A stretch of 64,000 bases of DNA. Source: Pelagicoccus sp. SDUM812005. Lineage in GTDB: Bacteria > Verrucomicrobiota > Verrucomicrobiia > Opitutales > Opitutaceae. The stretch lies in assembly GCF_031127875.1 (NCBI RefSeq), contig NZ_JARXIA010000004.1:1-64000 (forward strand), in the 5' to 3' direction. Shown piece after piece: positions 19,001-39,897 of the stretch (positions are counted from its first letter, which is position 1; every line of letters starts with the position of its first letter). A program made the position numbers and the translations under genes. The notes below the pieces were generated by a model. The model searched no databases. It was given only the letters and a program-made list of their open reading frames with translations, and was not told the origin of the DNA.

Positions 19001-20092
19001 ATGGGCAATATCGTTGTAACATTTGGTGAGATCATGGGTCGCATGGCGGCCCCACAAAACTTGCGCCTGCGCCAGACGCGGGAGCTCGAGGTTACCTACG
19101 CGGGCGCGGAAGCCAGTGTGGCGGCTTCGATCTGCAACTTCGGAGGAACGGCTCGCTATGTGACGGCTCTGCCGAAGCACGCTTTGGCGGAAGCGACGAT
19201 GGATGCGGTGCGTTCCGTGGGGATCGATACACGCTACGTGCTGCGCACAGATGAAGGTCGACTTGGTATCTATTATCTGGAGACGGGTGCGAATCAGCGT
19301 CCCAGTAACGTCATTTATGATCGGGCCGATTCTGCGATTTCGATCACCCCTGCTAACAAGTATGATTGGGAGTCGATATTTGAGGGTGCAGGCTGGCTGC
19401 ATCTAAGCGGCATTACTCCTGCTCTTTCCAAAAATGCGGCGGAAGCCACTTTGGTAGCAGCCATGAAGGCCAAGGATGCGGGATGCCAAGTGTCGATAGA
19501 TCTGAATTTCCGCGGGAAGCTCTGGAATTGGGACGCGGCGAAGTCTTCCCGTGAACTGGCTCAAGAAACGATGCGGACCATTCTGCCCTTTGTGGACGTG
19601 GTCATTGCGAACGAAGAGGATTGCCATGACGTGCTTGGTATACGAGCTGGGGATACGGATGTGCATTCCGGCGCTCTCGAGGTGGGACGTTATCCGGACG
19701 TCGCTTCCCAGGTTGTGGCGCAGTTTCCAAACATCAGCAAGGTGGCGATCACGCTACGTGAAAGCCTGTCGGCTACCCATAACAACTGGGGAGCCATGCT
19801 TTACAATGCTTCGACCGAAGAAGCCTTTTTCGCACCGCTAGACTCCGAGGGCAATTACCAGTCCTACGAGATCAAGAACATCGTGGACCGTGTGGGTGGC
19901 GGGGATTCCTTCGCGGGTGGGCTGATCTTTGCCCTGACGACCCCTGAGCTGAGCGCGCCGCAAACGGCGGTTAAGTACGCGGTCGCGGCCTCATGCTTGA
20001 AGCACTCGATCAAGGGCGACTTCAACTTCTCCACGCGAAGTGAGGTGGAAGCGCTCATGGGCGGTTCGGCTTCGGGACGGGTTGTGCGGTAG
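19001..20092 (+). CDS. PfkB-family 2-keto-3-deoxy-sugar-acid kinase
   Basis: 363 residues of the ribokinase/PfkB fold. The substrate-side segment YAGAEASVAASICNFGG (33-49) and the anion-hole and catalytic base region GGGDSFAGG (D302) are present. It should phosphorylate 2-keto-3-deoxy-gluconate or -galactonate at C6 using ATP, feeding the aldolase encoded 3 bp upstream. The operon stops at a clear terminator (20136-20158). In the anhydrogalactose reading this is the DauC-type kinase acting after the cycloisomerase at 2466. Family firm, exact epimer uncertain. Confidence 0.9.
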   Translation: MGNIVVTFGEIMGRMAAPQNLRLRQTRELEVTYAGAEASVAASICNFGGTARYVTALPKHALAEATMDAVRSVGIDTRYVLRTDEGRLGIYYLETGANQRPSNVIYDRADSAISITPANKYDWESIFEGAGWLHLSGITPALSKNAAEATLVAAMKAKDAGCQVSIDLNFRGKLWNWDAAKSSRELAQETMRTILPFVDVVIANEEDCHDVLGIRAGDTDVHSGALEVGRYPDVASQVVAQFPNISKVAITLRESLSATHNNWGAMLYNASTEEAFFAPLDSEGNYQSYEIKNIVDRVGGGDSFAGGLIFALTTPELSAPQTAVKYAVAASCLKHSIKGDFNFSTRSEVEALMGGSASGRVVR

Positions 20093-20135
20093 CTGCTTTT
20101 AAGGTGTTCCAAGGAACGGTCGGTCGCGATATTTC

Positions 20136-20158
20136 GCGGCTGCCCGCCGCCCTTTTTT
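20136..20158 (+). terminator. Terminator after the kinase
   Basis: GCGGC (20136-20140) and GCCGC (20146-20150) form a stem with a 5-base loop, followed by CC and six T. A shorter dyad GTTCC-AA-GGAAC precedes it at 20106-20117. Confidence 0.85.
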
Positions 20159-20186
20159 CATAAGCCTTTCTAGCCCCCATTATAGA

Positions 20187-21761
20187 ATGCTTTGCCAAAA
20201 TTCCCATTTTTTCTCGATTCGATTTATCGCTTGCTCGATTTTCGCGATTGCCTTCGCAATCAGCGTTCGCGGAGCTGAACGCCCCAACATTGTCATTATT
20301 TATGGAGACGATGTCGGATTCGCTGACGTGAGCGTTAATGTTGATGATCAGGGCGACGCTTCGCTTCCCAGGATAGAGACCCCTAACTTAGATAAGTTAG
20401 CTGGAGAGGGGTTGAACTTCACGGATGCCCATTGTTCTGCCTCGACCTGCACCCCTTCGCGCTACTCTTTGCTAACGGGGGTGCACGCCTTCCGTAAGGG
20501 AGTGTCCATCGCTCCTCCGAACGCTCCTTCGCTGATTACGACGGATATGTTGACCTTGCCGGCTATGTTGAAGCGAGCGGACTATCGTACGGGCTTGGTT
20601 GGAAAGTGGCATCTCGGTCTCGGGGAAGAGGGGGTTGGCCCTGATTGGAATGGCATGCTGAAGCCCGGGCCGCTAGAGTTGGGGTTTGATTCGGCTTACA
20701 TTTTGCCGACGACAAACGACAGAGTTCCTTGTGTGTATGTGGATGGTCACTACGTAGAGAATCTTGATCTTAATGATCCGATTTACGTGGGAGATACTCT
20801 GGCTGAAGTGGAAAAGCCGGGTAGTACCCAGTATCCTGATGCCCGCGCCCTCAATCCAGAGGAGAAGTTTTATAAGAGCATCGTCAATGAAATCGGTCGT
20901 ATTGGATACATGTCGGGAGGAAAGGTGGCCTTGTGGGACGATTATACTTCGACTGAGGTTTTTGTAGGAAAGGCTCTCGATTTTATCGATGAAAACAAAG
21001 GAGAGCCGTTTTTTCTTCTCTACTCTGCTCAGGATATACACATTCCGAATGCCCCGAATGAGCGTTTCCAAGGTAAGACCACATTGGGGGATCGTGGTGA
21101 TGCGATGGTGCAACTCGATTGGGCAGTGGGCGAGATCGTTGAAAGCCTGGAGCGAAATGGCCTACGGGAAAACACTATTCTGATTTTTACCAGTGACAAC
21201 GGTCCGACCCACCATGCTGATACGTATCCGCAAACTGACATTATTTCGTTGTATTCGCCACATGCGGGAAATGGCCATGATGCATCTGGCAAATGGCGAG
21301 GCGGCAAGTATGAGATATACGAAGGTGGAACTCGGGTACCGCTAATGATCCGTTGGCCAGGACGTATTGAGGCGAGTACTACAGATGCGATGGTTAATCA
21401 GATCGATTTTCTCGCATCGTTCGCAAGGCTTCTGGGTGTTGATCTAGAGGATCACGAAGCGGGCGACAGCCGCGATACGCTGAATGCCTTCTTGGGGGAG
21501 GATTCCAAAGGCCTAACCTATATGTTGGAAGAAGCTCGTGGGCTTGCGTTGCGTTTTAACGATTGGAAATACATACCGACGATTGGGATGAAGGGGAACA
21601 AGGGATTCTGGCCAGAGGAAGAGAGCTTGTTTAACCTAAGCGAAGACCCTGGAGAGCAAGTAAATGTAATAAGTCAGTTTCCGGAAATTGGTGGCGAGAT
21701 GGCGACGCGATTGAATGAGATCAGAAAGTCAAAGAGTGTGCGCTCTCTCGACATACCGTAG
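20187..21761 (+). CDS. Secreted S1-family sulfatase
   Basis: 524 residues with a Sec signal peptide (IRFIACSIFAIAFAISVRGAE). Metal site DD (41-42), formylglycine motif CTPSR (C88), GKWHLGLG and FTSDNGP are present, the arylsulfatase-A-like pattern. Codon use is visibly more AT-rich than the neighbouring aldolase and kinase, which may point to a separate origin. A terminator lies just upstream and no 21-bp operator was found, so its promoter is unclear; ATTATAG ends at the base before the start codon. It precedes a 590-bp spacer and the giant glycosidase. Substrate not readable. Confidence 0.9.
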   Translation: MLCQNSHFFSIRFIACSIFAIAFAISVRGAERPNIVIIYGDDVGFADVSVNVDDQGDASLPRIETPNLDKLAGEGLNFTDAHCSASTCTPSRYSLLTGVHAFRKGVSIAPPNAPSLITTDMLTLPAMLKRADYRTGLVGKWHLGLGEEGVGPDWNGMLKPGPLELGFDSAYILPTTNDRVPCVYVDGHYVENLDLNDPIYVGDTLAEVEKPGSTQYPDARALNPEEKFYKSIVNEIGRIGYMSGGKVALWDDYTSTEVFVGKALDFIDENKGEPFFLLYSAQDIHIPNAPNERFQGKTTLGDRGDAMVQLDWAVGEIVESLERNGLRENTILIFTSDNGPTHHADTYPQTDIISLYSPHAGNGHDASGKWRGGKYEIYEGGTRVPLMIRWPGRIEASTTDAMVNQIDFLASFARLLGVDLEDHEAGDSRDTLNAFLGEDSKGLTYMLEEARGLALRFNDWKYIPTIGMKGNKGFWPEEESLFNLSEDPGEQVNVISQFPEIGGEMATRLNEIRKSKSVRSLDIP

Positions 21762-22194
21762 GTTTCGTGTTCGCTTCGGTACCTAATATGGGTTCCTCGA
21801 TGACTCTGATTATAGATGAAGTATCGCTACCTAAGAACACTAGTGATCCTTCAAGTTGAAAAAGCCGATTGGTTCTGGATTCACTATCAGAATACAGATT
21901 TGAGATTGGTTGGAGAGTCGCTCTACTTTAATTTCACTACGATTCGAAGAGACTGTGCAATAAGTCGGTTTTTGTAGGGGTGGATCTTGGTCCGGACCGC
22001 TTCGTGCTGTGAAAGGGATTACGCTGTGGTCTGCAGCAGACTGCGACCCTGCCCGGGGGAGGGGTGTATGTTTTGTTGGACTTTCTCTAGAGGGTATCTG
22101 GGCGAAAATGCCATCTCGTTATCTGCAATCGAAATGTTACGGTATCCGAGCACTCATCGCGGGTGCGGGGGCACCAAGGTAGAGAAATCAAAAA
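21762..22194. other. Non-coding spacer upstream of promoter P5
   Basis: No supported gene. The palindrome GGTCCGGACC is at 21989-21998. Short open frames here (for example 21987-22283, which runs across P5) have no recognisable content. Confidence 0.5.
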
Positions 22195-22249
22195 ATGGTA
22201 AAGGTGAGTTGGTAAGTGCATATACCTTCAAGGTCTTGTCTCATATTCT
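22195..22249 (+). promoter_or_regulatory. Operator and promoter P5 for the giant glycosidase and cohesin-like gene
   Basis: GTGCAT at 22216-22221 (in GGTAAGTGCATATAC) is followed after 22 bp by TATTCT at 22244-22249. The distal half at 22195-22200 is ATGGTA, only partly matching. Expected transcript start near 22257. Confidence 0.55.
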
Positions 22250-22266
22250 CTGTCTACCCACTACTG

Positions 22267-22306
22267 ACGTCCAAAGGACGTGATTGAATAACGGTTACAT
22301 ACCGTT
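22267..22306 (+). other. Two short perfect dyads in the 5' leader of the giant gene
   Basis: ACGTCC-AAA-GGACGT (22267-22281) and AACGGT-TACAT-ACCGTT (22290-22306) follow one another within 40 bases, just after the predicted transcript start and before the ATG at 22352. They could be mRNA hairpins or operator dyads. Confidence 0.45.
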
Positions 22307-22351
22307 TTCTGGCATTCCCAATTGTACCTGTATATCCCCAACCCAATGTAT

Positions 22352-25300
22352 ATGAAGAATACGCTAATCGGCATTTCCGTCGGCTTGTGCCTGACGTTAA
22401 CCCCATCTACTCCGCTGTTTGCGGATTCGGTCTACGATGGACCCACGACAGACGAAGTTTTCCAGCAATTACTCTCCGATGTCGACGTGCGTGCAAGCAT
22501 ACTGGCGGACAAGATTGCCCAGGCTCGGGCGGCTGGCTTGAGCACCGACTACGCTCGTGTGTCGCAAATAACAATAGATAACTATCGCCACGGTATCTCC
22601 CTTTGGGACAGGGAGAACAACGAGGTCGTCCAAGAAGCGTATGCACGGCTTGGCGGTAGTCAAAATGATCCGGTCGGTCCGGTCGGATTGCCTTTCGATC
22701 AGTTGGCCGATGCGGTTAAGTTGGCGGACGACGCCATCGCAGAACTCGATAGGCAGCTCAGTGGCGAAATCTTCTTAAGGCGCCCTAAAGACTTATCTGA
22801 ATCGTCCGCTAAATTCGTAGGGCCGCTTCTCGTGCAGGACGGGCAGCCAATCTATCAGAGCAAGTTCTTTTGGGGAAAGAATGGCGATTCCGAAGGTGAC
22901 TTTCATGAAGCCTACGGCTATATGGGGGAGCACTACTTGGCGGTCATCGATCTACTAGATCCCAATTCGGAAGAGCCAACGAACCCGACGGCTATTGCCC
23001 CGTGGCGTGAGAGTTTTCTCAGGAATTCATTCGAAACGGTGATCGACCAGAAACGCGCGCCGATCCAGGTATTTCTTGGGCATGTCGTTCCGAACAATCA
23101 CTTCTTGCGCGAGGATTTTCCGGAAGCGTTCGAGGCTGGAGATCGCCTTTTCACGGAGTATGACTTTGACAATCCGAATGTGCGTGAGTGGTTGGATACG
23201 CTGCTGACGAATCAGTTGGCCACAGCGCGCGAGGTTGCTGGCGATGACGTCGAAATAATGACGATGCTCGCCAACGAGCCCAACTACGCGATTAGTCAAG
23301 GAGGGCGTTATGTCGGATCCGGTGTCTCGTCGTACACGATGGAAAAATACGCTGCGTGGTTGGAAGCCAAATACGGTAGCATTGCGGGGCTGAACGCAGT
23401 CTACGGCACTTCCCACGCTGATTTCGAAGAGGTCAAAGCGACCTACACCATTCCTCTGCGGACGAGCTATCGTGGCGGGCCCGTGTGGTATGATTGGATG
23501 CGATTCAATATGGACCGGACCAACGAATGGTTTCAGTTTTTGCACGATACTGCCAAAGAAGCAGATCCGCTCAACAAGACCCATATCAAAATGTGGGGCG
23601 AAGGGGCTATGTTCACAGACTTCGCGGACGAGGGTATCGATTTCGAGTATGTCATCAACATGGTGGACGTCCCCGGTTTCGACAATCATGCTGTTCCTTT
23701 TGGTGCAGAGTGGGACGTTCGTTTCGATCAAGCGTGGCGTGGCCGATACATCATGGATTGGCGTGCCCAGTCGCTAAACATCGAATTCACGAAGTCCTTG
23801 GCTCCCGACAAACCGTTTTTCGATTCCGAATACCATGGTTTCACCGGTGGACGCTTTATCGATTTCCACGCGGAGCCCGAATATGTCAGGGCGGCCTTGT
23901 GGGGATCCGCTCTTGATGGCGTCAACCTTTTGAATGCATGGCTCTACAACCGGGAATATGGAAGCGATGCGATTCGCACTACAGCCTACGTCGGTACCTC
24001 TGATTCGCAGCCGATTCAGATGGATGCGTTCGGTCGCACGTTCAAAGAGCTCAACGCTTTCGGCGCGGAAGTTTCTCAGCTCGTACCGAACGAGCGTTAC
24101 AACTTAGTCTACTACAGCCGTGATGCATCGATTCAAGACGGCGAGTATCCCGAAAAGATGGCTGATACATGGGAAGCGGTTCGCATCCTGAATATACCTT
24201 CAGGTTTCGTAACCGCGAATACGTTGCCGAATGTCGGTACTGCCCAAACCGTGATCGTTCCGCCGACTGCTCACATTTCGGATGAGGATCTGGCGGCGTT
24301 GGAGGCGTTCAATTCCTCTGGCGGCAGCGTTGTGGTTGTCGATCCGGACCATACGTTTGCCTTCGATGAAATGGGTTATCCTCAGGATGGCATTGCTGGC
24401 CTGACGCCGCTTGCAACTGTCGAGTACGGCGAAGTCTTCGACATGGCGGATGCCCTCGCTCCTGTGCTCGAGAGCCGAGCTCCGGCGATGCCTCTCGACA
24501 TAACGATCGAGGATGCATTCTACGACGAGTCCTATGGTGTCCTCACTTACCAGTACGAGGATGTGGATACAGGTGAAGCAGTTGTTGCTCTGCTCAATGT
24601 CAGCCAAGGCAAGCGCTGGGCAATCCTTCGCCAGGAAGATGGCGTTCCGCAACGGGTCGATGACTTGATTTCCGGCAATTCAGCCAGCCATTTGATTGAA
24701 ATGAAGCCTTATGACATGCGTCTCTTGCGGGCTTCCGTCGCTACAGTCGAGGAACCCGCGGATCCGGGTAACCGCGGCGGTGGAGAGCTGAATCCGCCCA
24801 TCGAATTCACCTACGACTTTTCGGAAGCTCCCTACCTCGACGGCCCAATTGACGGGCAGGATGGTTGGGCTGGCCGCCATTTCGTTGATGGAGATTCGCT
24901 TCTCCTCGACCAGTCCGGCAACTTCCTCTTCGCTCGACAGTCACAGGGGCTAAATGCGAGCGAGTACGATGAATTCTGCGTATCGACAGTATTCTCGTTC
25001 TCCGAGGACGGTGCCTGGAGAAACAATCGCCAGTTTTACAGCATCGTGCTGAGTGATGAAGCCGGTGGCGGTGATCAAATTCGGGCACGCATCAGTCGCT
25101 CTGCGGATGATAGTTACCAAGTTTCCATTTTCACGGCTCCGGGAGCGCCTCAGGTCGCATTCAGCAATTTTAGTGACAGCCTTCTAGGGTTCGATGGAGC
25201 CGCGAATACGATCGTTGATAGCGACCTTCTGGAGATGTCGCTCACGCTTACGCGTGGGGCGACGGCCGCAGATTGGACGTACACCTTTAGAATCGATAAC

Positions 25301-28300
25301 CTGACTGTAGGGGAAAATGCCTTCTTGTCCTCTGGAACCTTGGTCTCGACTCAAGGCTTCTACGATTCGGATTTCTACTATGGCGGAATCACCAACGCCC
25401 AGGACAATGTGGCGATCAACAATGTTCGTGTCTATGAAACCAAGTTGTGTGGTGCTCAGACGACGATTGTCGACCCAGATAACCAAGCTCCCTATTGGAC
25501 ATTCTCTGAACTGACAAAACTAAATGCGAATGTCGATTCGGACTATTCAGGCTATATCGCAGTTGATGCTCGCGACCCAGAATCCGACGCCCTGAATTTC
25601 AGGAAACTGTCCGGTCCAGACTGGTTGGTCCTTGAGCCGAATGGTACGCTCTCTGGCACGCCAAGCGTCGACGATCTCGGTCTCAATGTCTTCCAGGTGG
25701 AGGTATCGGCGACTGGTGGAAATGATATTGCGACGCTTAACATCACGGTTGATGAGGCATTACCGCCTGAACCCGATCACGATTACGGTACGGCACCAGC
25801 TATGTTATATGATTTTGGCGACACCGATGTGTACTCTGATGGTGCAGTTGCGGGCCAGGACGGTTGGATCGGAGGCAATCTCCACCTTATCGACGATGGC
25901 AAGCTGCGTCTCACGCAAGGTACGGACTGGGTCTATTCCTTCCAAGGCGAGGGAGTGGGTACAGCTGGAAAGAACGCATTCACTGTGTCTGTCGCCTTTG
26001 GCTTTGCTGAAGAGGGTGGATTCGTGAACGCGAAACAGTTCATGAATGTCGTGCTGAACGATGAAAACAACAACAGCAACTCGCAGATCAGGGCTGCTTT
26101 CAGACGAGCTTCGAACAACGACTACGCGATTAGCTTGTTCAATGAATTGGGTGCAGTCGGAGATAGCTACATTCCTTTCAAGGCCGACCTAATCGGATTG
26201 GACATCGACAGCAACCAGGACCTATACAGCGACATCTTGATCTTGTCCCTGACCGTAGTGAAGGGGGCGACTCCGGAAGATTGGGTTTACCTCATCGAGG
26301 TTGATAATGCCACTACGGGTGAAAATGTAGCAAGACGTACTGGATCCATGGCTACGGGCGAGGACTTGTTCAACGCTTCTAGGCTCTATGGTGGCATCAA
26401 CGGTGGTCAAATCGTCGATGCCGGAGTCGAAGAGCGTGTTGTCTTTGGTGTGACAGTCGAAGCGGATACGCTGAATGCCCCTCCGACCTTTTTGGCGGAT
26501 CCGATCTACGGTGCGGATGCGACGGAAGTGACGGATTACGTCGGATCTTTGGCGGGCACCGCACAAGATCCAGACGGAGACGACCTGACCTACAGCAAGG
26601 TCTCTGGTCCGGACTGGCTTCAAGTCGCTCCTGACGGTACGCTCTCGGGATTGCCGGTCTGCGATGATGTGGGTGAAAACGAATTCGTAGTGCGGGTTGA
26701 AGCAACCGGCGGCAGCTCTACTGCGACCCTAAACATTACCGTGGGATCGTTGCCCTTTGCGCCTTATATGACCTACGACTTTTCGACTGGCTATGATGAT
26801 GGTCCGCTGGAAGGACAACGGTGTTGGGAAGGCGTTCGCGGCACCCATGCGATCGATTCAGGCGTTCTCGTGATGAGCGATGCGAATAACGGCATCTCGA
26901 ACTTTCAGTCGCGGGGACTCTCCTCAGCAGTTTACGATAGCTACTTCCTTTCCGCGCAGTTCAGCTTCTCGGAAACAGGTGACTATCGCCTTAGGAAACA
27001 GTTCTTCAGTATCTTGCTGAACGATGGCATTACCAATGGTACTCCATTCCGTATTCGCTACTTCCGTATCAATGATAATGAGTACGAAATGCTTCTCGGG
27101 AATGACCTTCAGGACACGGTCGGAAATATTAGATTCAGCGCCGCTGAACTTGGTCTTGATGTAGACGCAAACGACGACCTGGATAGTGATGTCTTGGAGA
27201 TGATGCTGGAACTGAAGAAAGCGGGTATCACAGATACGCCAACGGGACCTGTCTATAACTGGACCTTCGAAATGGCGATGTATAATGTCTCCCAGGGTGG
27301 AGTGCTTGTCGCGAAGTCCACTGGTGAAATCACTTCTGGGGAAGGCTTATATAATGCACCCGTTCTCTACGGAGGAATCCAAGGTACCCAAGTCGACACG
27401 ACACAGGTCGTAAACCGCAAGGTCTACAGCGTGACGATCGGTGGAGACATCGATTCCGACGGTGACGGTGTGCCTGACGCGGAAGACGCATTCCCGAACG
27501 ATCCGTCAGAGACTCAGGATACAGACAGCGACGGCGTGGGCGACAATGCGGACGCCTTTCCCAACGATCCCACGGAAACGACGGATACGGATGGTGACGG
27601 AGTTGGCGACAACAGCGACGCCTTCCCGAATGATCCGAACGAAAGCGTTGACACCGACGAAGATGGGATCGGCGACAATGCGGATAACTGTCCGACCATT
27701 GCCAACGATGCTCAGATCGACGTTAATGGAGACGGTTATGGCGACGACTGTGTCGGCACCGACCTGAAGGTGGCAGAAGGCGTTGTGATTGGCTACGCTC
27801 CCGTTATCGGCCAGGGCGTTTCAATCCACAAAAACACCATAATCGGTGACCATGTCGTTCTCGCCGATGGCGTGTCGATCCACAAGGATGTTACTACTGG
27901 CGATTTCCTAACAGTGGGCGAGGGCACGACCATCAAAAAGGACGTCGTTCTAGGCGATGGCGTCGTCATAGGTGACGATACCTCGATCGAGCACGGTGTT
28001 TTGATCGGCTCCGAGGTGCTCATCGGAAGCGGCGTCAAGATCGGTCACGGCAGTGTGATTGAGAGCGGCGCCAAGATCGGCGATGGAGTACAGATCGCTC
28101 CAAATACAACAGTACCCGCGGGTATACCAGGCGACGTATCTGGGGATGGTGTAGTCGATAGAGCTGACCTTAATGTGGTGCGTGGCGCCCTCGGAAGCAG
28201 GGTGGGCGATGCGAACTACATTGCCGAAATCGACTACGATGAAGACGGCGTGGTTACCCGTGGTGACTACGCGACCTGGTACCGAATCGCTCGGAGAAGC

Positions 28301-28306
28301 CTATGA
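22352..28306 (+). CDS. Giant secreted multidomain clan-A glycosidase with hexapeptide-repeat and dockerin-like C-terminus
   Basis: 1984 residues from the ATG at 22352, where a Sec signal peptide starts. Order: catalytic region ~30-810 related to the glycosidases at 37417 and 39898, with likely acid/base E309 (ANEPNY) and nucleophile E493 (FDSEYHGF); three homologous lectin-like (concanavalin-type) modules at ~820-1031, ~1152-1370 and ~1472-1695; two Ig-like modules at ~1043-1135 and ~1375-1468, each with SGPDWLxxxPxGTLSG; thrombospondin-3-type calcium repeats ~1700-1800; a left-handed beta-helix hexapeptide series ~1804-1922; and a dockerin-like pair from ~1927 (GDVSGDGVVDRADLN, then DYDEDGVVTRGDY). 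The fold resembles GH42/GH50/GH167-type enzymes that attack beta-galactosides. It probably degrades a galactan outside the cell and is anchored through its dockerin-like end. Family number not certain. Confidence 0.85.
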   Translation: MKNTLIGISVGLCLTLTPSTPLFADSVYDGPTTDEVFQQLLSDVDVRASILADKIAQARAAGLSTDYARVSQITIDNYRHGISLWDRENNEVVQEAYARLGGSQNDPVGPVGLPFDQLADAVKLADDAIAELDRQLSGEIFLRRPKDLSESSAKFVGPLLVQDGQPIYQSKFFWGKNGDSEGDFHEAYGYMGEHYLAVIDLLDPNSEEPTNPTAIAPWRESFLRNSFETVIDQKRAPIQVFLGHVVPNNHFLREDFPEAFEAGDRLFTEYDFDNPNVREWLDTLLTNQLATAREVAGDDVEIMTMLANEPNYAISQGGRYVGSGVSSYTMEKYAAWLEAKYGSIAGLNAVYGTSHADFEEVKATYTIPLRTSYRGGPVWYDWMRFNMDRTNEWFQFLHDTAKEADPLNKTHIKMWGEGAMFTDFADEGIDFEYVINMVDVPGFDNHAVPFGAEWDVRFDQAWRGRYIMDWRAQSLNIEFTKSLAPDKPFFDSEYHGFTGGRFIDFHAEPEYVRAALWGSALDGVNLLNAWLYNREYGSDAIRTTAYVGTSDSQPIQMDAFGRTFKELNAFGAEVSQLVPNERYNLVYYSRDASIQDGEYPEKMADTWEAVRILNIPSGFVTANTLPNVGTAQTVIVPPTAHISDEDLAALEAFNSSGGSVVVVDPDHTFAFDEMGYPQDGIAGLTPLATVEYGEVFDMADALAPVLESRAPAMPLDITIEDAFYDESYGVLTYQYEDVDTGEAVVALLNVSQGKRWAILRQEDGVPQRVDDLISGNSASHLIEMKPYDMRLLRASVATVEEPADPGNRGGGELNPPIEFTYDFSEAPYLDGPIDGQDGWAGRHFVDGDSLLLDQSGNFLFARQSQGLNASEYDEFCVSTVFSFSEDGAWRNNRQFYSIVLSDEAGGGDQIRARISRSADDSYQVSIFTAPGAPQVAFSNFSDSLLGFDGAANTIVDSDLLEMSLTLTRGATAADWTYTFRIDNLTVGENAFLSSGTLVSTQGFYDSDFYYGGITNAQDNVAINNVRVYETKLCGAQTTIVDPDNQAPYWTFSELTKLNANVDSDYSGYIAVDARDPESDALNFRKLSGPDWLVLEPNGTLSGTPSVDDLGLNVFQVEVSATGGNDIATLNITVDEALPPEPDHDYGTAPAMLYDFGDTDVYSDGAVAGQDGWIGGNLHLIDDGKLRLTQGTDWVYSFQGEGVGTAGKNAFTVSVAFGFAEEGGFVNAKQFMNVVLNDENNNSNSQIRAAFRRASNNDYAISLFNELGAVGDSYIPFKADLIGLDIDSNQDLYSDILILSLTVVKGATPEDWVYLIEVDNATTGENVARRTGSMATGEDLFNASRLYGGINGGQIVDAGVEERVVFGVTVEADTLNAPPTFLADPIYGADATEVTDYVGSLAGTAQDPDGDDLTYSKVSGPDWLQVAPDGTLSGLPVCDDVGENEFVVRVEATGGSSTATLNITVGSLPFAPYMTYDFSTGYDDGPLEGQRCWEGVRGTHAIDSGVLVMSDANNGISNFQSRGLSSAVYDSYFLSAQFSFSETGDYRLRKQFFSILLNDGITNGTPFRIRYFRINDNEYEMLLGNDLQDTVGNIRFSAAELGLDVDANDDLDSDVLEMMLELKKAGITDTPTGPVYNWTFEMAMYNVSQGGVLVAKSTGEITSGEGLYNAPVLYGGIQGTQVDTTQVVNRKVYSVTIGGDIDSDGDGVPDAEDAFPNDPSETQDTDSDGVGDNADAFPNDPTETTDTDGDGVGDNSDAFPNDPNESVDTDEDGIGDNADNCPTIANDAQIDVNGDGYGDDCVGTDLKVAEGVVIGYAPVIGQGVSIHKNTIIGDHVVLADGVSIHKDVTTGDFLTVGEGTTIKKDVVLGDGVVIGDDTSIEHGVLIGSEVLIGSGVKIGHGSVIESGAKIGDGVQIAPNTTVPAGIPGDVSGDGVVDRADLNVVRGALGSRVGDANYIAEIDYDEDGVVTRGDYATWYRIARRSL

Positions 28307-28338
28307 GGATAGCCAAGCGAGAAATGGAGCAAAACAAT

Positions 28339-28950
28339 ATGACTAAAATGAAACTTGATATGATAACGAAATTTGGTTCGCGTGCATTCTTAGGTGCAGC
28401 TTCGTTATTCTGTGTGTCGACGGCGCAAGCGATCTCCTATAGCTTCACCATTCAGGAGTCCGATATAAAGGTTGGGGAAACTTTCGACGTAGCCTTCACG
28501 GCGACCTTTGACGCCGACTATTTCCTCGACTACTTCGCGTTCGATGTCGGAGTCGATCCTGTCACCCTGACAAGCTCAAGTGGCATGGTTCGATACCTAG
28601 GCGCGTCAGTAAACGGTTCGCTATTCGATACCTCCTTCCTGTCTGAGGTCAGTGCTCTGGGGGATACGCCGGCGTTCGCAGGAGGTACGGATCTACTGCT
28701 GGCGACCCTTAGTTTTGAAGCTCTTGCTCCGGGCTCCGAGAGTGTCTCGCTTTCGGGGGCGTTGAATGACTTCGCCGGCATCGTCGTTTCCAAGGAAGCT
28801 GGGCCAGGCCTGTTCGATTTCAACGTTATCGAATCCGATATCGAGGCTCGTTTGGACGTACGGGTAAGCGCGGTGCCTGACTCTCCGCTGTACGGCGCCG
28901 TGCCCGTTCTGCTGATCGGAATGCTTGCCTTTCATCGGAAGCGATCTTAG
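28339..28950 (+). CDS. Cohesin-like protein with VPDSG/PEP-CTERM-like sorting tail
   Basis: 203 residues from ATG 28339, preceded by GGAG at 9-base spacing; an upstream in-frame ATG at 28303 overlaps the stop of the giant gene (ATGA) and would add 12 residues. A signal peptide ends near VSTAQA. The middle (~25-165) reads like a cohesin domain: VGETFDVAFTATF, YFAFDVGVDPVTLT, then LLATLSFEALAPGSESVSL. The C-terminus has VPDSPLYG, a hydrophobic helix and HRKRS, the layout of VPDSG/PEP-CTERM tails processed by exosortase. Next to a gene whose product ends in a dockerin-like pair, it looks like an envelope anchor for that enzyme. Cohesin identity is a reading by eye, moderately sure. Confidence 0.65.
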   Translation: MTKMKLDMITKFGSRAFLGAASLFCVSTAQAISYSFTIQESDIKVGETFDVAFTATFDADYFLDYFAFDVGVDPVTLTSSSGMVRYLGASVNGSLFDTSFLSEVSALGDTPAFAGGTDLLLATLSFEALAPGSESVSLSGALNDFAGIVVSKEAGPGLFDFNVIESDIEARLDVRVSAVPDSPLYGAVPVLLIGMLAFHRKRS

Positions 28951-28986
28951 GCCGCGATTGACTTGATACAGTCGATATAACTTAAG

Positions 28987-29020
28987 ACCGGTCCACTCGA
29001 AAGGGTGGACCGGTTTTTTT
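28987..29020 (+). terminator. Terminator after the cohesin-like gene
   Basis: ACCGGTCCAC (28987-28996) and GTGGACCGGT (29005-29014) form a perfect 10-bp stem with an 8-base loop, followed by a T run to 29020. It closes the giant glycosidase operon. Confidence 0.95.
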
Positions 29021-29154
29021 AGAGATTCTTCGAGTGTGCTTAGCTTAAAAACGAGAGAACCGGGCAATAAATACCCCTCCGAACTCGAGAATGCAGCTAT
29101 GCGATTCTTATACTTTTGAAAAAGTTACTCCCGTCACTTCGTTGATTGGTGGAT

Positions 29155-29173
29155 GGAGCTGCTTGTCAGCTCC
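29155..29173 (+). other. Perfect 7-bp dyad upstream of P6
   Basis: GGAGCTG-CTTGT-CAGCTCC lies 45 bp before the distal half-site of P6, with no T run. Function unknown; it may be an additional operator. The rest of 29021-29217 shows no gene. Confidence 0.35.
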
Positions 29174-29217
29174 TCCAGCCGGCGGCCAAAGGTATCTTAT
29201 ATCGTTGCGACGATTTC

Positions 29218-29272
29218 ATGCATAGGAAAGGTCAAAATGTGCATAGCTAGTTGTTGTGAGGGTGGCTATGAT
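29218..29272 (+). promoter_or_regulatory. Direct-repeat operator and promoter P6 for GH29
   Basis: ATGCATAGG (29218) and GTGCATAGC (29239) are near-identical half-sites 21 bp apart. TATGAT at 29267-29272 follows the proximal one after 22 bp. The predicted transcript start (29278-29280) is immediately before the ATG at 29281, so the mRNA would be leaderless or nearly so. Confidence 0.75.
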
Positions 29273-29280
29273 AGACGGGT

Positions 29281-30663
29281 ATGTTTAAAGCCAAATCGTC
29301 TTATGTACGACTACGAGATCTGTCCTTGGTTGCAGTCTTGGCGGTTGTTTGTACCCAGTCCCTCGCGCGTAGAGCCATGGCCAACGATGTTGTACGTGAC
29401 TTTCTGAACCTGAAGTTCGGCATGTTCATTCATTACAATATGGGCACCTATCATGCGGAGCAATGGGCCAATCCGGGGCATGATCCCAAATCTTTTGCGC
29501 CCGCCGGTTTGGATTGTTCTCAATGGGCGAAGGCGGCCAAGTCGGCGAAGATGAACTATGCGGTCTTTACTACCAAGCATCATGACGGGTTTTGCCTTTG
29601 GGATACTGAGGTGACTAACTACGACATCGCGAGTAGCGCCTATTCAGGCGACATCGTGCAGGAGTATGCGGATGCATTTCGAGCGGAGGGGATCGCGGTT
29701 GGTTTGTACTTCTCGGTTTGGGATCGTCAGCACCAGATCGAGCATGGTGCGATTACGCCTGAGAAGGTTGAATTTACGAAGCGCCAGCTAACCGAACTGC
29801 TTACGAACTACGGCGAAATCGTTTGTATTGTGATCGATGGCTGGGGGTCGCGTTGGGGCCGTGGACCCAACTTCGAGGAATTGCCGTTTGAGGTGCTCGC
29901 TGACCACATTCAATCGATTCAGCCGGATTGCCTGGTCATTAACCACAGCTGCCGGGCGGATTTGGCCTTCACGGACGTCGTTCATTACGAAGCGACGCAT
30001 GGGCAGCATATTCCATACGATAATACCTTCCCCTCCCAGCAGGGGCCAACGCTGCAACCCTCTTGGTTCTGGGAGAAGCACTTCGCGGATCTCGAACTGA
30101 AGTCAGTCGAGTCGGTTCTGCAGGAGCTGAAGTTTTCGAACTCGCACTTGAGTAACTACTTGTTGAACGCGGCGCCAAATGACGAAGGTCTGATGGATGA
30201 GAATGTGCTTCGTCGACTGGCGGAAATAGGAGAAGCGATTGAGTTCACGCCACCATTGCAGTCTCTTCCTGAGCTGCAGCCGACGAATAAGAATGTAACG
30301 GCGAGGGTTTCGAGTCGATCGAATGGAACAGCTACGGATCCTGCGAATGTTTTGGACAGTAACCTATTCACTGGCTGGAAGGCATCCGCGGAGGATGATT
30401 CTGCTTGGATCGAGCTCGATTTCTCCAAGCCAGAACGTTTCAACTTTCTGTCCATGCACGGTGGATACAAAAAGGCTATCCAGAGATATGTTGTGGAAGC
30501 TTTGATCGAAGGCGAGTGGAAGGAGCTTTACAGAGCAGGTCCGATTACCTTCCACGAGAAGCATCACTTCGGAGACGTGACCGCTCAGAAGTATCGGCTG
30601 CGAGTTCTCGAAAAGGCGGGGACACCTGAAATCGTGGAGATGACCTTCGTGCGTTACGAGTAG
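29281..30663 (+). CDS. GH29 alpha-L-fucosidase-family enzyme with C-terminal F5/8-type domain
   Basis: 460 residues. The start at 29281 is supported by a signal peptide (MFKAKSSYVRLRDLSLVAVL, ending near RRAMA). The GH29 barrel has FGMFIHYNMGTYH (47-59), TKHHDGFCLWDT (99-109) and the nucleophile aspartate D186 (VCIVIDGWGSRWG). Residues ~290-460 look like a discoidin (F5/8 type C, CBM32-like) sugar-binding domain: TARVSSRSNG...DSNLFTGWKA, then WIELDFSKPE. Family members release alpha-L-fucose, but GH29 also includes relatives acting on other sugars, and no second fucose-pathway gene is obvious here. It is a single-gene unit under P6, so it is part of the regulon. Substrate therefore open. Confidence 0.88.
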   Translation: MFKAKSSYVRLRDLSLVAVLAVVCTQSLARRAMANDVVRDFLNLKFGMFIHYNMGTYHAEQWANPGHDPKSFAPAGLDCSQWAKAAKSAKMNYAVFTTKHHDGFCLWDTEVTNYDIASSAYSGDIVQEYADAFRAEGIAVGLYFSVWDRQHQIEHGAITPEKVEFTKRQLTELLTNYGEIVCIVIDGWGSRWGRGPNFEELPFEVLADHIQSIQPDCLVINHSCRADLAFTDVVHYEATHGQHIPYDNTFPSQQGPTLQPSWFWEKHFADLELKSVESVLQELKFSNSHLSNYLLNAAPNDEGLMDENVLRRLAEIGEAIEFTPPLQSLPELQPTNKNVTARVSSRSNGTATDPANVLDSNLFTGWKASAEDDSAWIELDFSKPERFNFLSMHGGYKKAIQRYVVEALIEGEWKELYRAGPITFHEKHHFGDVTAQKYRLRVLEKAGTPEIVEMTFVRYE

Positions 30664-30902
30664 GGTAGCGCAAATTGTGCAAGTGAAAGCTCTTGAAAAT
30701 CTTCGGCTGATCCAGCGTCCTTCGTGGGAGGTGGGTATTCGCGTTCGTCCGACAGTTCTTATCCCCCTTGAGTGCGCCAACGATTCTCGTATCTGATTCG
30801 CAGGTACACGGATCTGTGCATACTCGCGGTCCGGATCGTGAATGAAAAAACGACTTGCCTATAAAGTGCGAGGGAGCGAACGCGTTTTTGAGAAGTCGTT
30901 TT

Positions 30903-30958
30903 CTGAATAAGCAAGAGCGTAAAGTGCATAGCGTAAAGCGCGTCAGTTCTGCTAGTAT
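30903..30958 (+). promoter_or_regulatory. Operator and promoter P7 for the six-gene sulfatase/glycosidase operon
   Basis: GTGCAT at 30924-30929 (in GTAAAGTGCATAGCG) is followed after 23 bp by TAGTAT at 30953-30958. The distal half at 30903 is CTGAAT, a one-base variant of CTGCAT, exactly 21 bp upstream. Expected transcript start near 30965. Nothing else was recognised in the gap 30664-30902. Confidence 0.65.
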
Positions 30959-31044
30959 ACCATGCCCCAAAAGCCCGCGCCTCCGCAAACGCCATACCGC
31001 GTCGATGAACTGCGGCGCTTGCGGTCGAGTGGTCCGTTGACAAG

Positions 31045-32526
31045 ATGAAAGTTCCTGCAGTTTTTTTTACCAGATCCCTCGCTAAGCTCTTGATTGGGCT
31101 TGTTGTTCTTTCGATCGCGGCTGTCTCGAGATTGTACGGCGAGGAGCGGCCGAATATCTTGCTTATCCTCGCCGACGACCTTGGCTATGGAGATGTAGGC
31201 TTCAACGGATCGGAAGACATTGTAACGCCAGAGTTGGACCGGCTCGCGAAAGAGGGCACTGTATTCTCCTCCGCGTATGCGGTGCACCCGTTTTGCGGGC
31301 CGAGTCGGATGGCCCTTTTGACAGGCCGTTATCCTCACGCAATCGGAGTACCATACAATCTTCCGAGCTACAGTTCGGGACGTCACAGGGACAAAGGTGT
31401 CCCGACGGCTGAGGTCTTACTGAGTTCCGTTTTGAAGAACGCCGGCTATGCGACAGGCCTAATGGGCAAATGGCACCTAGGACATGCTCCCGAGTTTCAT
31501 CCGAACCAGCGAGGGTTTGACGAATTCTATGGCTTTCTAGGTGGGGGTATTCTCTATTTCGGTCCGTATCAGGCTCAGAACGAGGAAGGTACAGTTTGGG
31601 ATTATCGCGTGTATCCAGAATACAATGGCGTTTCTGATAAAACCCTCGGCAAGGACGACTACATGACGGATATCTTGAGCGATAAGGGCGTCGAATTCAT
31701 TCGCAAACAGTCGAAAAGTGATGCCCCGTTCTTCCTATTCATGTCCTACAACGCTCCGCACACGCTGCTCGCAGCGAAGCAGGATGACTTGGATCGTTTT
31801 CCAGCGCTGGAGGGAAAGCGAAAGATCTATGCCGCGATGGTGTATGCTCTCGATCGCGGGGTGGGGCGCTTAGTCGACGCTCTGGAGGAAACCAAGGAAC
31901 TAGAGAATACCCTGATCGTGTTCTTCAGCGACAATGGGGGGCGTCTCGACCAAGGCGCTTCGAATGGAGAGTTGAGGGGTGCAAAGGGTGATGTGCAGGA
32001 AGGTGGCTTTCGGACGCCGATGTTCATGCATTGGCCTGAGGGAATCGAGCGTCGCCAGATCATAGATACACCAGTCAGCGCTTTGGATTTGTTTCCGAGC
32101 TTCGCACGGATTGCGAATGCAGAACTCGCTGAAAACGAAATCTTGGATGGGGTCGATATCTTGCCTCTGCTGCGTGGAGAGCCTTCTGAGGCTGATGATA
32201 GGGCGATCTTTGCGGCTCGACACCGGATGGTTCATACCGAGGTCAGCGGACGCAACGATCGTTGGAAGCTGATTTGGGAAAGCGAGGAAGGTCCGTGGCG
32301 GCTCTACGATCTTGAAACGGATATTTCCGAACAACATGACCTGAGCGATGTGTATCCAGCTCAAGTAAGTGCCCTCCTCGATGACATCGGCAGTTGGTTG
32401 TCAGAACATATTGAACCGCTCTGGTTTTATTCTGAAGAGGAAGCGGAAGCTTGGGCTCGCGAAGACATGCCGAAATATGAAGAAATGCTATCCGGTGATT
32501 CGGATGCGTCGGAAGTTGCCCATTAG
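31045..32526 (+). CDS. Secreted S1-family sulfatase, paralogue of the one at 5252
   Basis: 493 residues with a Sec signal peptide (SLAKLLIGLVVLSIAAVSRL). Metal site DD (44-45), formylglycine motif CGPSR (C84), GKWHLGH and FFSDNGG are present. It matches the sulfatase at 5252 along its length, including LDRGVGxLVDAL, RHRxxxxEVSGRxDxWK and the WF-S-EEEAE-W tail, so the pair arose by duplication. It is the first gene of the operon driven by P7; the FG-GAP gene follows 10 bp after its stop. Sulfate position and sugar are unknown, but repeated copies within one regulon suggest a polymer with more than one sulfation pattern. Confidence 0.9.
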   Translation: MKVPAVFFTRSLAKLLIGLVVLSIAAVSRLYGEERPNILLILADDLGYGDVGFNGSEDIVTPELDRLAKEGTVFSSAYAVHPFCGPSRMALLTGRYPHAIGVPYNLPSYSSGRHRDKGVPTAEVLLSSVLKNAGYATGLMGKWHLGHAPEFHPNQRGFDEFYGFLGGGILYFGPYQAQNEEGTVWDYRVYPEYNGVSDKTLGKDDYMTDILSDKGVEFIRKQSKSDAPFFLFMSYNAPHTLLAAKQDDLDRFPALEGKRKIYAAMVYALDRGVGRLVDALEETKELENTLIVFFSDNGGRLDQGASNGELRGAKGDVQEGGFRTPMFMHWPEGIERRQIIDTPVSALDLFPSFARIANAELAENEILDGVDILPLLRGEPSEADDRAIFAARHRMVHTEVSGRNDRWKLIWESEEGPWRLYDLETDISEQHDLSDVYPAQVSALLDDIGSWLSEHIEPLWFYSEEEAEAWAREDMPKYEEMLSGDSDASEVAH

Positions 32527-32536
32527 TATTAGATTT

Positions 32537-34408
32537 ATGTTAACCCCATTTTATCAAATCGCTAAACTGGCGGTACTTTGCTGTGCCCCTTTTACCTTGA
32601 ACAGTCAGTGTTCTGCGTCCGGTGCTGTCCCTGGAAATACGTCTTTCGTTTCCGCGGGAAATGACTTTCCGAGAGTCGAAAAGAACCTGCGTAAATGGGA
32701 ATCACCCATTGTGGCCGACCTCGACCAGGATGGTTGGGTTGACATGATTCTAAACGAGCATGGCTATGCCATTCAGATCGTTTGGAATAATGAGGGGACT
32801 TATGCAAAGCCTTGGGACCTGCTAATGGGCGATGCTCATGGCATTACGGTCGGTGACTACGATCAGGACGGCTTGTACGAGATGGTCGTTTCTCGCGGTG
32901 GAGGTTCTGGCAGCAATGCCCGCAATTCGATCGTCTACAAGGTTGGCAAGGATCGGAGCTTTGAGCGATTGCCTGAGTTTGACGAACCGCTGGCATTCAT
33001 GAGGGGGCGCACCGTCGTTTTTCTGGATGGTGACAAAGACGGAGATTTGGATCTTTTGAACTTCGCTTTTCCTTCCCGGGAGAAGAAAGGCTCGAGCGAG
33101 AATTACGTGTACGGAAACGATGGTGTCGGAGGACTGACGGTTCGATCAATGTTGCCGTTCACGCCCCGAAATGGACAAAAAGTAGCGGTTACGGATTTCG
33201 ACAGCGATGCCATCGATGATCTGGTATTGTACGGGGATGGACCAATTCGCGCTTTTCAGGGAAAAGGAAATTTGAGCTACGAGGAAGTGGGGGATCGTGT
33301 ATTTGACGGAAAGATACATGATGTTACCGGTATTGTCGAAATCGACTACGATAACGACGGAGACTTCGACCTGTTCTTGTCTCGTGGGAAAGAGTTCGAA
33401 TCGGGAAGCACCTTCTACGATCCCGAAGGTCAGGTTTGGGGCTTTTACGCGCTGCGGGAAAACGTCTGGTTCGATGAGCTAACGATCGGGGATGTATTGT
33501 TCCTCGAGAACTACCAGTCGCCGTGGCCCAACAAGAAAATTTTCACGGGCGAGCCTGCCCATTCGTACGAGTTCGAGGGCGAGACGCATTCGGGTAAAGA
33601 CATACGTTTTGTGAACAGCGATACACTCGGCTGGCCTGACCACCTTACGCACCGAGGGTTGTATCTTGGTTTTGTGGGCAACGAAAAATGGCGCTTCGTC
33701 GCTCAAGCCGGTTCTCCAATGTCAGCAGTGGTACATGGTGTGAAGAACCTGCCTGCTTCATTAGGTGAGGAAGGACCAGAAGATATTTTGTTGGAGAATC
33801 GCGATGGCAAATACGTCGATGTGAGCCGAGACGCTGGCCTATCTATTCAAGGGCACTCGTTTGGTGTTGCGGCGGGTGATTTCGACAACAACGGATTTCA
33901 AGACCTCTTGGTGATCCGTCGTGGAAACTTGGTGACAGCGAACGAGTCCGTTCTTTGGTTGAATCAAGGTGACGGCAAGTTCAAGCAATCAAGTTCGCAT
34001 GGCGTGATTTCTCCCGAGCTGGGAGCGATCGGATTCGGGGCGATCGCCTACGATTACAATAAGGATGGGAAACTCGATATCCTGCTCGGAAACGAGCGCG
34101 GCAAGTGGCATCTGTTTCGCAACGAAGCTCTCGTGGTTGGCAATTACCTGACTGTCGATGTCGGAGCACCAGGCAAGGGTAGAGCCACGGCGCTCGGAGC
34201 AATCGTTACCGTAGAGGCAGGCGACCTCGTGCAAAGCAAAAGAGTCGGTTCCGATGGAGCTCCGTATTCAAGAGGCTACGACAGGTACGTGTATTTCGGA
34301 TTGGGGGCCTTCGAGGGCTCTGCGAAGGTAACGGTTACGCTCAGTAACGGAGAAACGTTCGAACGAGTCGTTAAATCCGGGAACCGGACTGTGGAGATCG
34401 AGCGGTAA
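32537..34408 (+). CDS. Secreted FG-GAP/VCBS beta-propeller protein with ASPIC/UnbV C-terminus
   Basis: 623 residues from the ATG at 32537, which gives a signal peptide (FYQIAKLAVLCCAPF, cysteines near 15-16) and follows the sulfatase stop by 10 bp. Repeated calcium-binding FG-GAP loops are visible: ADLDQDGWVDMIL, GDYDQDGLYEMVV, FLDGDKDGDLDLL, DYDNDGDFDLFLS, GDFDNNGFQDLLV, DYNKDGKLDILL. The end (ALGAIVTVEAGD...SDGAPYSRGYDRYVYFGLG) is the ASPIC/UnbV module. No hydrolase or lyase motif is recognised. It is a paralogue of the protein at 35532 and sits between sulfatase and glycosidase genes, so it probably binds or processes the same polysaccharide at the cell surface. Function unknown. Confidence 0.8.
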   Translation: MLTPFYQIAKLAVLCCAPFTLNSQCSASGAVPGNTSFVSAGNDFPRVEKNLRKWESPIVADLDQDGWVDMILNEHGYAIQIVWNNEGTYAKPWDLLMGDAHGITVGDYDQDGLYEMVVSRGGGSGSNARNSIVYKVGKDRSFERLPEFDEPLAFMRGRTVVFLDGDKDGDLDLLNFAFPSREKKGSSENYVYGNDGVGGLTVRSMLPFTPRNGQKVAVTDFDSDAIDDLVLYGDGPIRAFQGKGNLSYEEVGDRVFDGKIHDVTGIVEIDYDNDGDFDLFLSRGKEFESGSTFYDPEGQVWGFYALRENVWFDELTIGDVLFLENYQSPWPNKKIFTGEPAHSYEFEGETHSGKDIRFVNSDTLGWPDHLTHRGLYLGFVGNEKWRFVAQAGSPMSAVVHGVKNLPASLGEEGPEDILLENRDGKYVDVSRDAGLSIQGHSFGVAAGDFDNNGFQDLLVIRRGNLVTANESVLWLNQGDGKFKQSSSHGVISPELGAIGFGAIAYDYNKDGKLDILLGNERGKWHLFRNEALVVGNYLTVDVGAPGKGRATALGAIVTVEAGDLVQSKRVGSDGAPYSRGYDRYVYFGLGAFEGSAKVTVTLSNGETFERVVKSGNRTVEIER

Positions 34409-37388: not shown

Positions 37389-37416
37389 CAAACTCAACTT
37401 CAACCTTCCCCTTTTT

Positions 37417-39831: not shown

Positions 39832-39897
39832 GCTGGCTTCGCTCTAAACAGTGATTTGTGCACTGAAGCCCTGCGTGGCTGTCTTTCGAGAAACGAT

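Follow-up and report, generated by a model that had tools for sequence, protein, structure and literature searches.

A putative enzyme–anchor gene pair joining a dockerin, a cohesin-fold protein and an exosortase-type tail in Pelagicoccus

OlpA and OlpC of Clostridium thermocellum take a dockerin directly through a type I cohesin; they have a single-cohesin make-up like that of the protein described below, are anchored differently and coexist with a cellulosome. The glycosidase cohesins of Clostridium perfringens are used outside cellulosomes, and two of those solved (2vo8 and 2w1n) are by title modules within enzymes, unlike the separate anchor protein considered here. We analysed a 64,000-nucleotide stretch of Pelagicoccus sp. 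SDUM812005 (contig NZ_JARXIA010000004.1, positions 1 to 64,000; hereafter the window), in which the gene for a GH167-type enzyme with a C-terminal dockerin is directly followed by one for a small protein with a predicted cohesin fold and an exosortase-type tail. We think it likely that the two constitute an attachment module in which each such enzyme docks on its own private, exosortase-sorted cohesin.

ScaE of Ruminococcus flavefaciens resembles the small protein in combining one cohesin with a C-terminal signal for covalent anchoring, so that dockerin partners are held on the cell (PMC2930009, from the excerpts of that paper). ScaE is a Gram-positive protein linked by sortase through LPXTG to peptidoglycan and holds a whole multi-cohesin complex, whereas the Pelagicoccus protein carries an exosortase-type tail, belongs to the Verrucomicrobiota and stands beside one enzyme gene. 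The 'planctosome' proposed for freshwater Planctomycetes likewise concerns non-cellulosomal cohesin–dockerin anchoring in bacteria of the Planctomycetes–Verrucomicrobia–Chlamydiae (PVC) group, but it involves peptidases, a lamin-tail anchor and an adaptor protein, and the available passages of PMC6461901 describe no exosortase tail. Cohesin and dockerin sets outside cellulosomes also occur in anaerobic methanotrophic (ANME) archaea, organisms with archaeosortases; these and the Archaeoglobus proteins differ in being archaeal and forming large families, and the accessible sections of PMC5244752 describe no enzyme–anchor gene pair with a sorting tail. In a survey of cellulosomes (PMC11557425, partial text), one PVC organism is credited with a Coh2-Doc1-Coh1 protein. 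The open-licence literature yielded no work joining cohesin, dockerin and PEP-CTERM, none on Pelagicoccus dockerins, none on VPDSG-CTERM and no description of an exosortase-type cohesin; dockerin appeared together with exosortase only in the ANME study, in the portion of it available (PMC5244752). The gene pair is not a cellulosome: a multi-cohesin scaffoldin was not found, no protein of the cohesin family PF00963 being detected in the window's own genome (G000, 6.65 Mb), where OlpA and OlpC have a cellulosome beside them, and the small protein's strong homologues having one domain each.

The dockerin and its cohesin-fold neighbour

The features of the pair, numbered from the first letter of the window, are:

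28127–28303, + strand: type I dockerin with two loops, at the extreme C-terminus of the 1986-aa open reading frame (ORF)
28133–28168 and 28232–28267, + strand: calcium loops of the dockerin, both complete, DVSGDGVVDRAD and DYDEDGVVTRGD
28339–28950, + strand: cohesin-like putative anchor protein, 203 aa, starting at ATG 28339 (alternatives 28303 and 28348)
28339–28431, + strand: signal peptide of the small protein (MTKMKLD...STAQA), judged by eye
28432–28869, + strand: predicted cohesin-fold domain, about 146 residues, from an AlphaFold2 model compared with the PDB by Foldseek
28870–28947, + strand: putative exosortase-type sorting tail AVPDSPLYGAVPVLLIGMLAFHRKRS, consisting of VPD, a hydrophobic stretch and a basic end
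28984–29017, + strand: intrinsic terminator, a 15-bp stem closed by a 4-nt loop and extending into a T run, at the end of the gene pair

An earlier note on this DNA had seen two dockerin-like calcium repeats from about 28130 at the end of a giant enzyme, and our analysis bears this out. Both loops fit the F-hand pattern D-x-[NDS]-x-D-G-x-[IV]-x-x-x-D of type I dockerins, and the Pfam model PF00404 (cut-off 22.9 bits) scored 29.6 bits in the genome scan and 21.7 bits in a whole-protein scan. Searching the PDB with a profile of five dockerin sequences produced entries of cohesin–dockerin complexes as the top two matches (2y3n_B, 5.2e-9; 5lxv_B, 6.9e-7), a search that is unspecific on its own because calmodulins and other EF-hand proteins fill many of the best 60 rows. 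The motif T-R-x-D-Y-x-x-W-Y of repeat 2 is invariant in the five pairs of the window's family (alignment A2), and its D, Y and W are conserved in all seven pairs. Judged from its sequence, the dockerin at the enzyme's C-terminus is real.

The same note had called the product of the next gene cohesin-like and had given it a signal peptide. The signal peptide is present, and the likeness to cohesins stands at the level of predicted fold and of a pairing conserved with different enzymes; at the level of sequence models no match was obtained. As a single sequence the small protein matched nothing in Pfam, in NCBIfam or, by phmmer, in the PDB, and a profile of seven family members returned one meaningless PDB match (Contactin, E 0.43). 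AlphaFold2 modelled the window protein with a pLDDT of 74.6 and a pTM of 0.70, and a homologue from Puniceicoccaceae bacterium K14, 38% identical to it across the domain, with a pLDDT of 81.0 and a pTM of 0.78, using three sequences in either case. When compared by Foldseek with 350,542 PDB chains, the window model found cohesins at ranks 1–8, seven of which were all its matches at E ≤ 0.001 (TM by target at most 0.55). For the homologue, ranks 1–16 were cohesins, as were 32 of the 47 matches at E ≤ 0.001 (TM by target at most 0.66), the remaining 15 being other beta-sandwich proteins (TRAP, pilins, YcnI and integrins among them). Its ranks 1–3 were the C. perfringens glycosidase cohesins 2vo8, 2jh2 and 2w1n, and rank 15 the non-cellulosomal cohesin 2xdh of Archaeoglobus fulgidus; the OlpA and OlpC complexes 3ul4 and 4dh2 were also among the Foldseek matches. 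By these predicted models, beta-sandwiches whose nearest solved structures are cohesins, the small protein is cohesin-fold, and we use that term rather than PF00963 member because the folds match cohesins while the sequence models are silent.

As to where the small gene begins, the earlier note had left a choice between an ATG overlapping the enzyme's stop codon (28303) and one 32 bp further on (28339). A GGAG lies 9 nt before ATG 28339, and we prefer this start to the less favoured 28303 without regarding the matter as settled; ATG 28348 is also a candidate, four homologues in alignment A1 starting at the equivalent position. The terminator stem, 33 nt past the small gene's stop codon, has a folding energy of -26.5 kcal/mol (z -6.3), equalled by none of 200 shuffles. 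A pattern scan for terminators did not pick it up; the likely reason is that stem and T run merge. Scanning for promoter patterns gave nothing prominent (3 found against 6.7 expected), and an Rfam scan of 20000–31000 at gathering scores gave nothing.

Pairing across genomes

Homologues of the small protein were collected by alignment query and whole-genome searches (a single-sequence search for related loci gave none), an E-value below 1e-10 being taken as a strong match. The 189 relatives searched contain two in G000 and one each in G002, G007 and G015; those of G157 and G185 come from a search of 372 genomes belonging to the order. The total is seven proteins in six genomes and three genera, the window protein counted in; we judge G002 to be Pelagicoccus sp. 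SDUM812002 and G015 to be strain K14. For all seven, the gene immediately upstream encodes a dockerin at its C-terminal end. In the window 32 nt separate stop and start, unless ATG 28303 is used, in which case the genes overlap by 4 nt; the gap is 40–43 nt in four further pairs, 21 nt in G185, and 0 or 36 nt in G157 depending on the start.

Left outside this count were weak matches in G004, G048, G076 and G133 (E 0.0026–0.0072, among the 189 relatives), two weak places in G000 (E 0.058 and 0.138), and six places in five further genomes of the order (E 0.0019–0.0073) whose alignment is C-terminal only (profile position 87 or later) and takes in much of the sorting tail. Inspection by eye of the surroundings in G004, G048 and G076 revealed no dockerin-ended gene, and no dockerin neighbour was noticed at five of the six C-terminal-only places.

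The paired enzymes are of four types. That of the window is a GH167 relative; the second pair of G000 (C118) has a 2599-aa CBM9/fn3/He_PIG protein, the N-terminal 700 residues of which matched no PDB sequence at E ≤ 0.01 and whose counterparts measure 2837 aa in G007 and 2836 aa in G002, an orthology taken from the sequence ends only. In G015 the partner is a Big_2/F5-F8C protein that also matches a beta-helix model weakly, and in G157 and G185 it is a PL11 rhamnogalacturonan lyase. Because the paired enzymes differ in this way, it is the dockerin and the cohesin-fold gene that travel together, and not the enzyme. G000 has three Dockerin_1 matches, and the only two strong matches of the small protein there, itself and a paralogue, are each placed immediately after one of them, which in 6.65 Mb is more than chance would give.

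These results bear on a simpler explanation, namely that the dockerin is a mere calcium-binding cap continuing the enzyme's thrombospondin type 3 (TSP3) repeats, beside an unrelated PEP-CTERM-like beta-sandwich protein placed there by chance. Calcium repeats do precede the dockerin in the window enzyme, VPDSG-CTERM proteins are numerous in G000 and PF00963 is silent; against this, all seven strong homologues adjoin dockerin genes that differ in their other domains, and a cohesin is the top fold match for both models. We regard this explanation as very improbable.

The arrangement of one enzyme with one anchor, as the earlier note had put it, is literal in G002, G007 and G015, where exactly one Dockerin_1 match adjoins the one small-protein match; it needs amending for G000, which has the second pair and a third dockerin gene (C53). 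Divergence of the two partners is correlated across the pairs (r 0.92, reached by 4 of 5040 permutations, identity included, with species relatedness as a confounder). Such co-divergence agrees with a private anchor, yet relatedness among the species could produce it by itself. A variant of the attachment module would make the cohesin a shared socket or minimal scaffold, on which the enzyme's dockerin and those of the second pair or of other cells bind interchangeably. The two C-terminal dockerins of G000 are 56% identical and its two cohesin-like domains 48%, and in G157 two PL11-type dockerin genes, the downstream one frame-split, flank a single cohesin-like gene, as such sharing would allow. 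The variant sits less well with the three genomes that have a single Dockerin_1 match and with the observation that every C-terminal dockerin gene of G000 has a cohesin-like gene of its own, and we hold it to be rather unlikely.

Sorting tail, proposed mechanism and counter-evidence

The VPDSG/PEP-CTERM-like C-terminus ascribed to the small protein is a three-part, putatively exosortase-type tail whose motif is the variant VPDSP and not VPDSG. The spacing from V to the basic pair is 20 residues and the best 15-residue mean hydropathy 2.18, compared with 21–22 residues and 1.78–2.43 in nine hand-picked VPDSG-type tails of G000. That genome has 27 VPDSG-CTERM matches at E ≤ 1, 24 of them over the cut-off and the window protein not among them; some of these tails deviate as well (VPDSS, VPDHS and VPDVG). 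Across the seven homologues the VPDSG model matches one and PEP-CTERM models two, the VPEP tails of G157 and G185 fitting PEP-CTERM by sequence. Exosortase (PF09721) gives three matches in G000 and is also matched in all five other pair genomes. With a tail anatomy near that of the VPDSG tails and exosortase matches in all six pair genomes, processing of the tail by an exosortase is plausible.

In the mechanism that we propose, both genes would be read on one transcript and the GH167-type enzyme secreted, its calcium-loaded C-terminal dockerin plugging into the single cohesin-fold domain of the next gene's product. The small protein would be exported, an exosortase of the cell would recognise its VPD–hydrophobic–basic tail, and the protein would then be retained in the outer envelope or the envelope's exopolysaccharide, which would place the enzyme's activity at the cell surface. 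A GH167 enzyme of Pseudoalteromonas is predicted to be membrane-associated through a lipid anchor (PMC6923384, in the part of that paper available), and the need met there by lipid would here be met non-covalently. A private plug-and-socket anchor is the most economical reading of the evidence.

The tail could also be read as a plain membrane segment, VPDSP not being VPDSG, and the small protein, which would still bind the enzyme, as its chaperone or retention factor in the periplasm or membrane. That the curated VPDSG models miss the tail is in keeping with such a role, as is a gene starting near or overlapping the enzyme's stop codon, where a dedicated helper would be expected. Yet spacing and hydrophobicity are close to those of the genome's VPDSG tails, including some likewise without the G (VPDSS, VPDHS), and one homologue matches the VPDSG model and two match PEP-CTERM models; we consider this alternative improbable.

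Several results nonetheless weigh against surface attachment through a private cohesin. Profile searches, which the earlier note had proposed as a check, recovered the dockerin and returned no PF00963 cohesin in G000 at E ≤ 10, and PF00963 matches none of the seven small-protein homologues. An hhalign comparison against ten of the order's canonical cohesins was weak (probability 2.7%, E 0.017), too weak for profile–profile comparison with canonical cohesins to be kept as proof of kinship. Each AlphaFold2 model rests on three sequences, with the best of five far above the rest (74.6 against 59–63 for the window protein and 81.0 against 64–67 for the homologue). The sorting-signal models TIGR03778 and PF18205 miss the window protein's tail, and the dockerin of G185 is seen only with the A2 profile and missed by PF00404. 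In G001, which belongs to the same genus, a C-terminal dockerin is present, nothing cohesin-like lies downstream of it and A1 finds no match; the gene that follows is convergent and by eye resembles that of a LacI-type regulator. Lastly, 23 of 30 order-wide dockerin loci have no cohesin-like neighbour within 1.5 kb by the canonical profile. These loci come from 39 places matched by PF00404 at E ≤ 1e-4 in 28 of the 372 genomes, the window and C118 pairs lying outside the sample; in two of the 30 the pattern gave no dockerin ORF, and their neighbours went unscored. A neighbour above the inclusion threshold occurs at the other seven loci, at two of which (L112 and L128) the match is circular because both proteins went into the profile itself. 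As the E-values refer to a few dozen ORFs, bit scores are more informative here. L114 has an extra match, to a different profile, covering the sorting tail only. With seven of 30 loci having a profile-positive neighbour, the pairing is typical of the small protein's subfamily and not of all dockerins of the order.

Other dockerin loci show further arrangements. Some N-terminal dockerin genes are preceded by a cohesin-like gene (L115, 53.0 bits; L106, 31.4 bits). The third dockerin of G000 (C53; L001/L019) is at the N-terminus of a 786-aa protein, and a 355-aa gene 31 nt upstream is weakly cohesin-like (13.9 bits); the same pair recurs in G003 (L101; 4.9 bits, below threshold). In a few genomes the cohesin-like gene is thus upstream of N-terminal and downstream of C-terminal dockerins, as if gene order tracked the dockerin end. 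At L043, L045 and L052 (G216, G197 and G127) dockerin-ended genes overlap a separate PF00963 cohesin gene by a few bases; these cohesins have no PEP-CTERM-like tail, and the G216 dockerin is preceded by FG-GAP and cohesin domains. L060 and L062 (G255 and G384) encode giant proteins with a dockerin-like match (A2 profile) near the C-terminus, followed by a small gene that is cohesin-like at 18.3 bits in G255, below the cut-off of 24.1, and has no Pfam match in G384.

The GH167-type enzyme, its locus and what the pair may mean

The remaining features of the large enzyme and its relatives nearby are:

22346–28306, + strand: secreted multi-domain enzyme, 1986 aa, with signal peptide MYMKNTLIG...LFADS
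22322, + strand: alternative TTG start of the large enzyme
22502–24739, + strand: GH167-like catalytic region (phmmer 9whd, 6.8e-57; 6ptm, 8.4e-55)
23276–23278, + strand: codon of the putative acid/base Glu 311 (LANEP), aligned with the Glu of 6ptm that we count as E295 of BovGH167
23828–23830, + strand: codon of the putative nucleophile Glu 495 (FDSEYH), aligned with the Glu of 6ptm that we count as E472 of BovGH167
27581–27715, + strand: TSP3-like calcium repeats (PF02412, best stretch 23.4 bits, under the cut-off of 25)
27752–28114, + strand: hexapeptide (left-handed beta-helix) repeats (PF00132, 7.9e-19; acyltransferase models also match)
37375–39831 and 39856–42267: two further GH167 enzymes (E 1.6e-141 to 2.6e-151 to solved members)

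What had been described as a giant glycosidase is more precisely a GH167 relative in a seemingly carrageenan-related locus. Its catalytic region is related in sequence to known members (9whd is named GH167, and 6ptm we take to be BovGH167 from the PDB entries given in the accessible part of PMC6923384), and the catalytic Glu pair is kept, BovGH167 having E295 as acid/base and E472 as nucleophile according to the same partial text; the numbering on 6ptm is our own count with a constant offset of 2. The Pfam family GH42 also matches the region (25.6 bits, cut-off 21). Catalysis by the large enzyme is plausible. The GH167 exo-beta-galactosidases of carrageenan loci share with it the catalytic domain, both catalytic Glu and nearby sulfatases, but the members described in the available sections of PMC6923384 are of about 800 aa, one of them predicted to be lipid-anchored, whereas the window enzyme has 1986 aa and includes Ig-like (He_PIG) domains, TSP3 and hexapeptide repeats and the dockerin. 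The hexapeptide stretch, commonly a feature of acyltransferases, here follows the TSP3-like repeats of a secreted enzyme, precedes its dockerin and is perhaps a rigid spacer.

The two further GH167 proteins are far closer to solved members than the giant enzyme; Pfam scans report no dockerin in either, and the first (37375–39831) has a lipobox-like N-terminus (LTFVAC). One locus thus holds three GH167 proteins with three apparent modes of localisation (lipid, plain signal peptide and dockerin), of which the divergent giant with its docking module would be the surface-held member. Sulfatases, an alpha-L-fucosidase-type gene, a KDPG-type aldolase and a KDG/KDGal-kinase-like gene scoring below curated cut-offs lie nearby, and the locus looks carrageenan-related, judging from GH167. 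The interval from the fucosidase-type gene to these two GH167 genes contains two FG-GAP repeat proteins (32369–34408 and 35532–37388), one with an ASPIC/UnbV domain, and at 9953–11929, beside the GH167-type carrageenan genes, the NCBIfam 'aceric acid hydrolase' model matches at 692.9 bits, under its cut-off of 950.

Taken at its broadest, the finding would be that Opitutia use a portable 'private anchor' cassette, in which a C-terminal dockerin and an adjoining single-cohesin gene with an exosortase tail tether a large polysaccharidase to the didermal surface; this would be the first exosortase-served cohesin–dockerin system in the open-licence literature and would rest on a cohesin subfamily that sequence models miss. 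We give this broad claim a little better than an even chance. Since PF00963 matches none of the seven homologues, surveys made with that model may undercount such systems. If the claim is true, marine polysaccharide-degrading Verrucomicrobiota would have a one-to-one cohesin–dockerin attachment tied to exosortase sorting, and the pairs would be natural ones for surface display in didermal bacteria.

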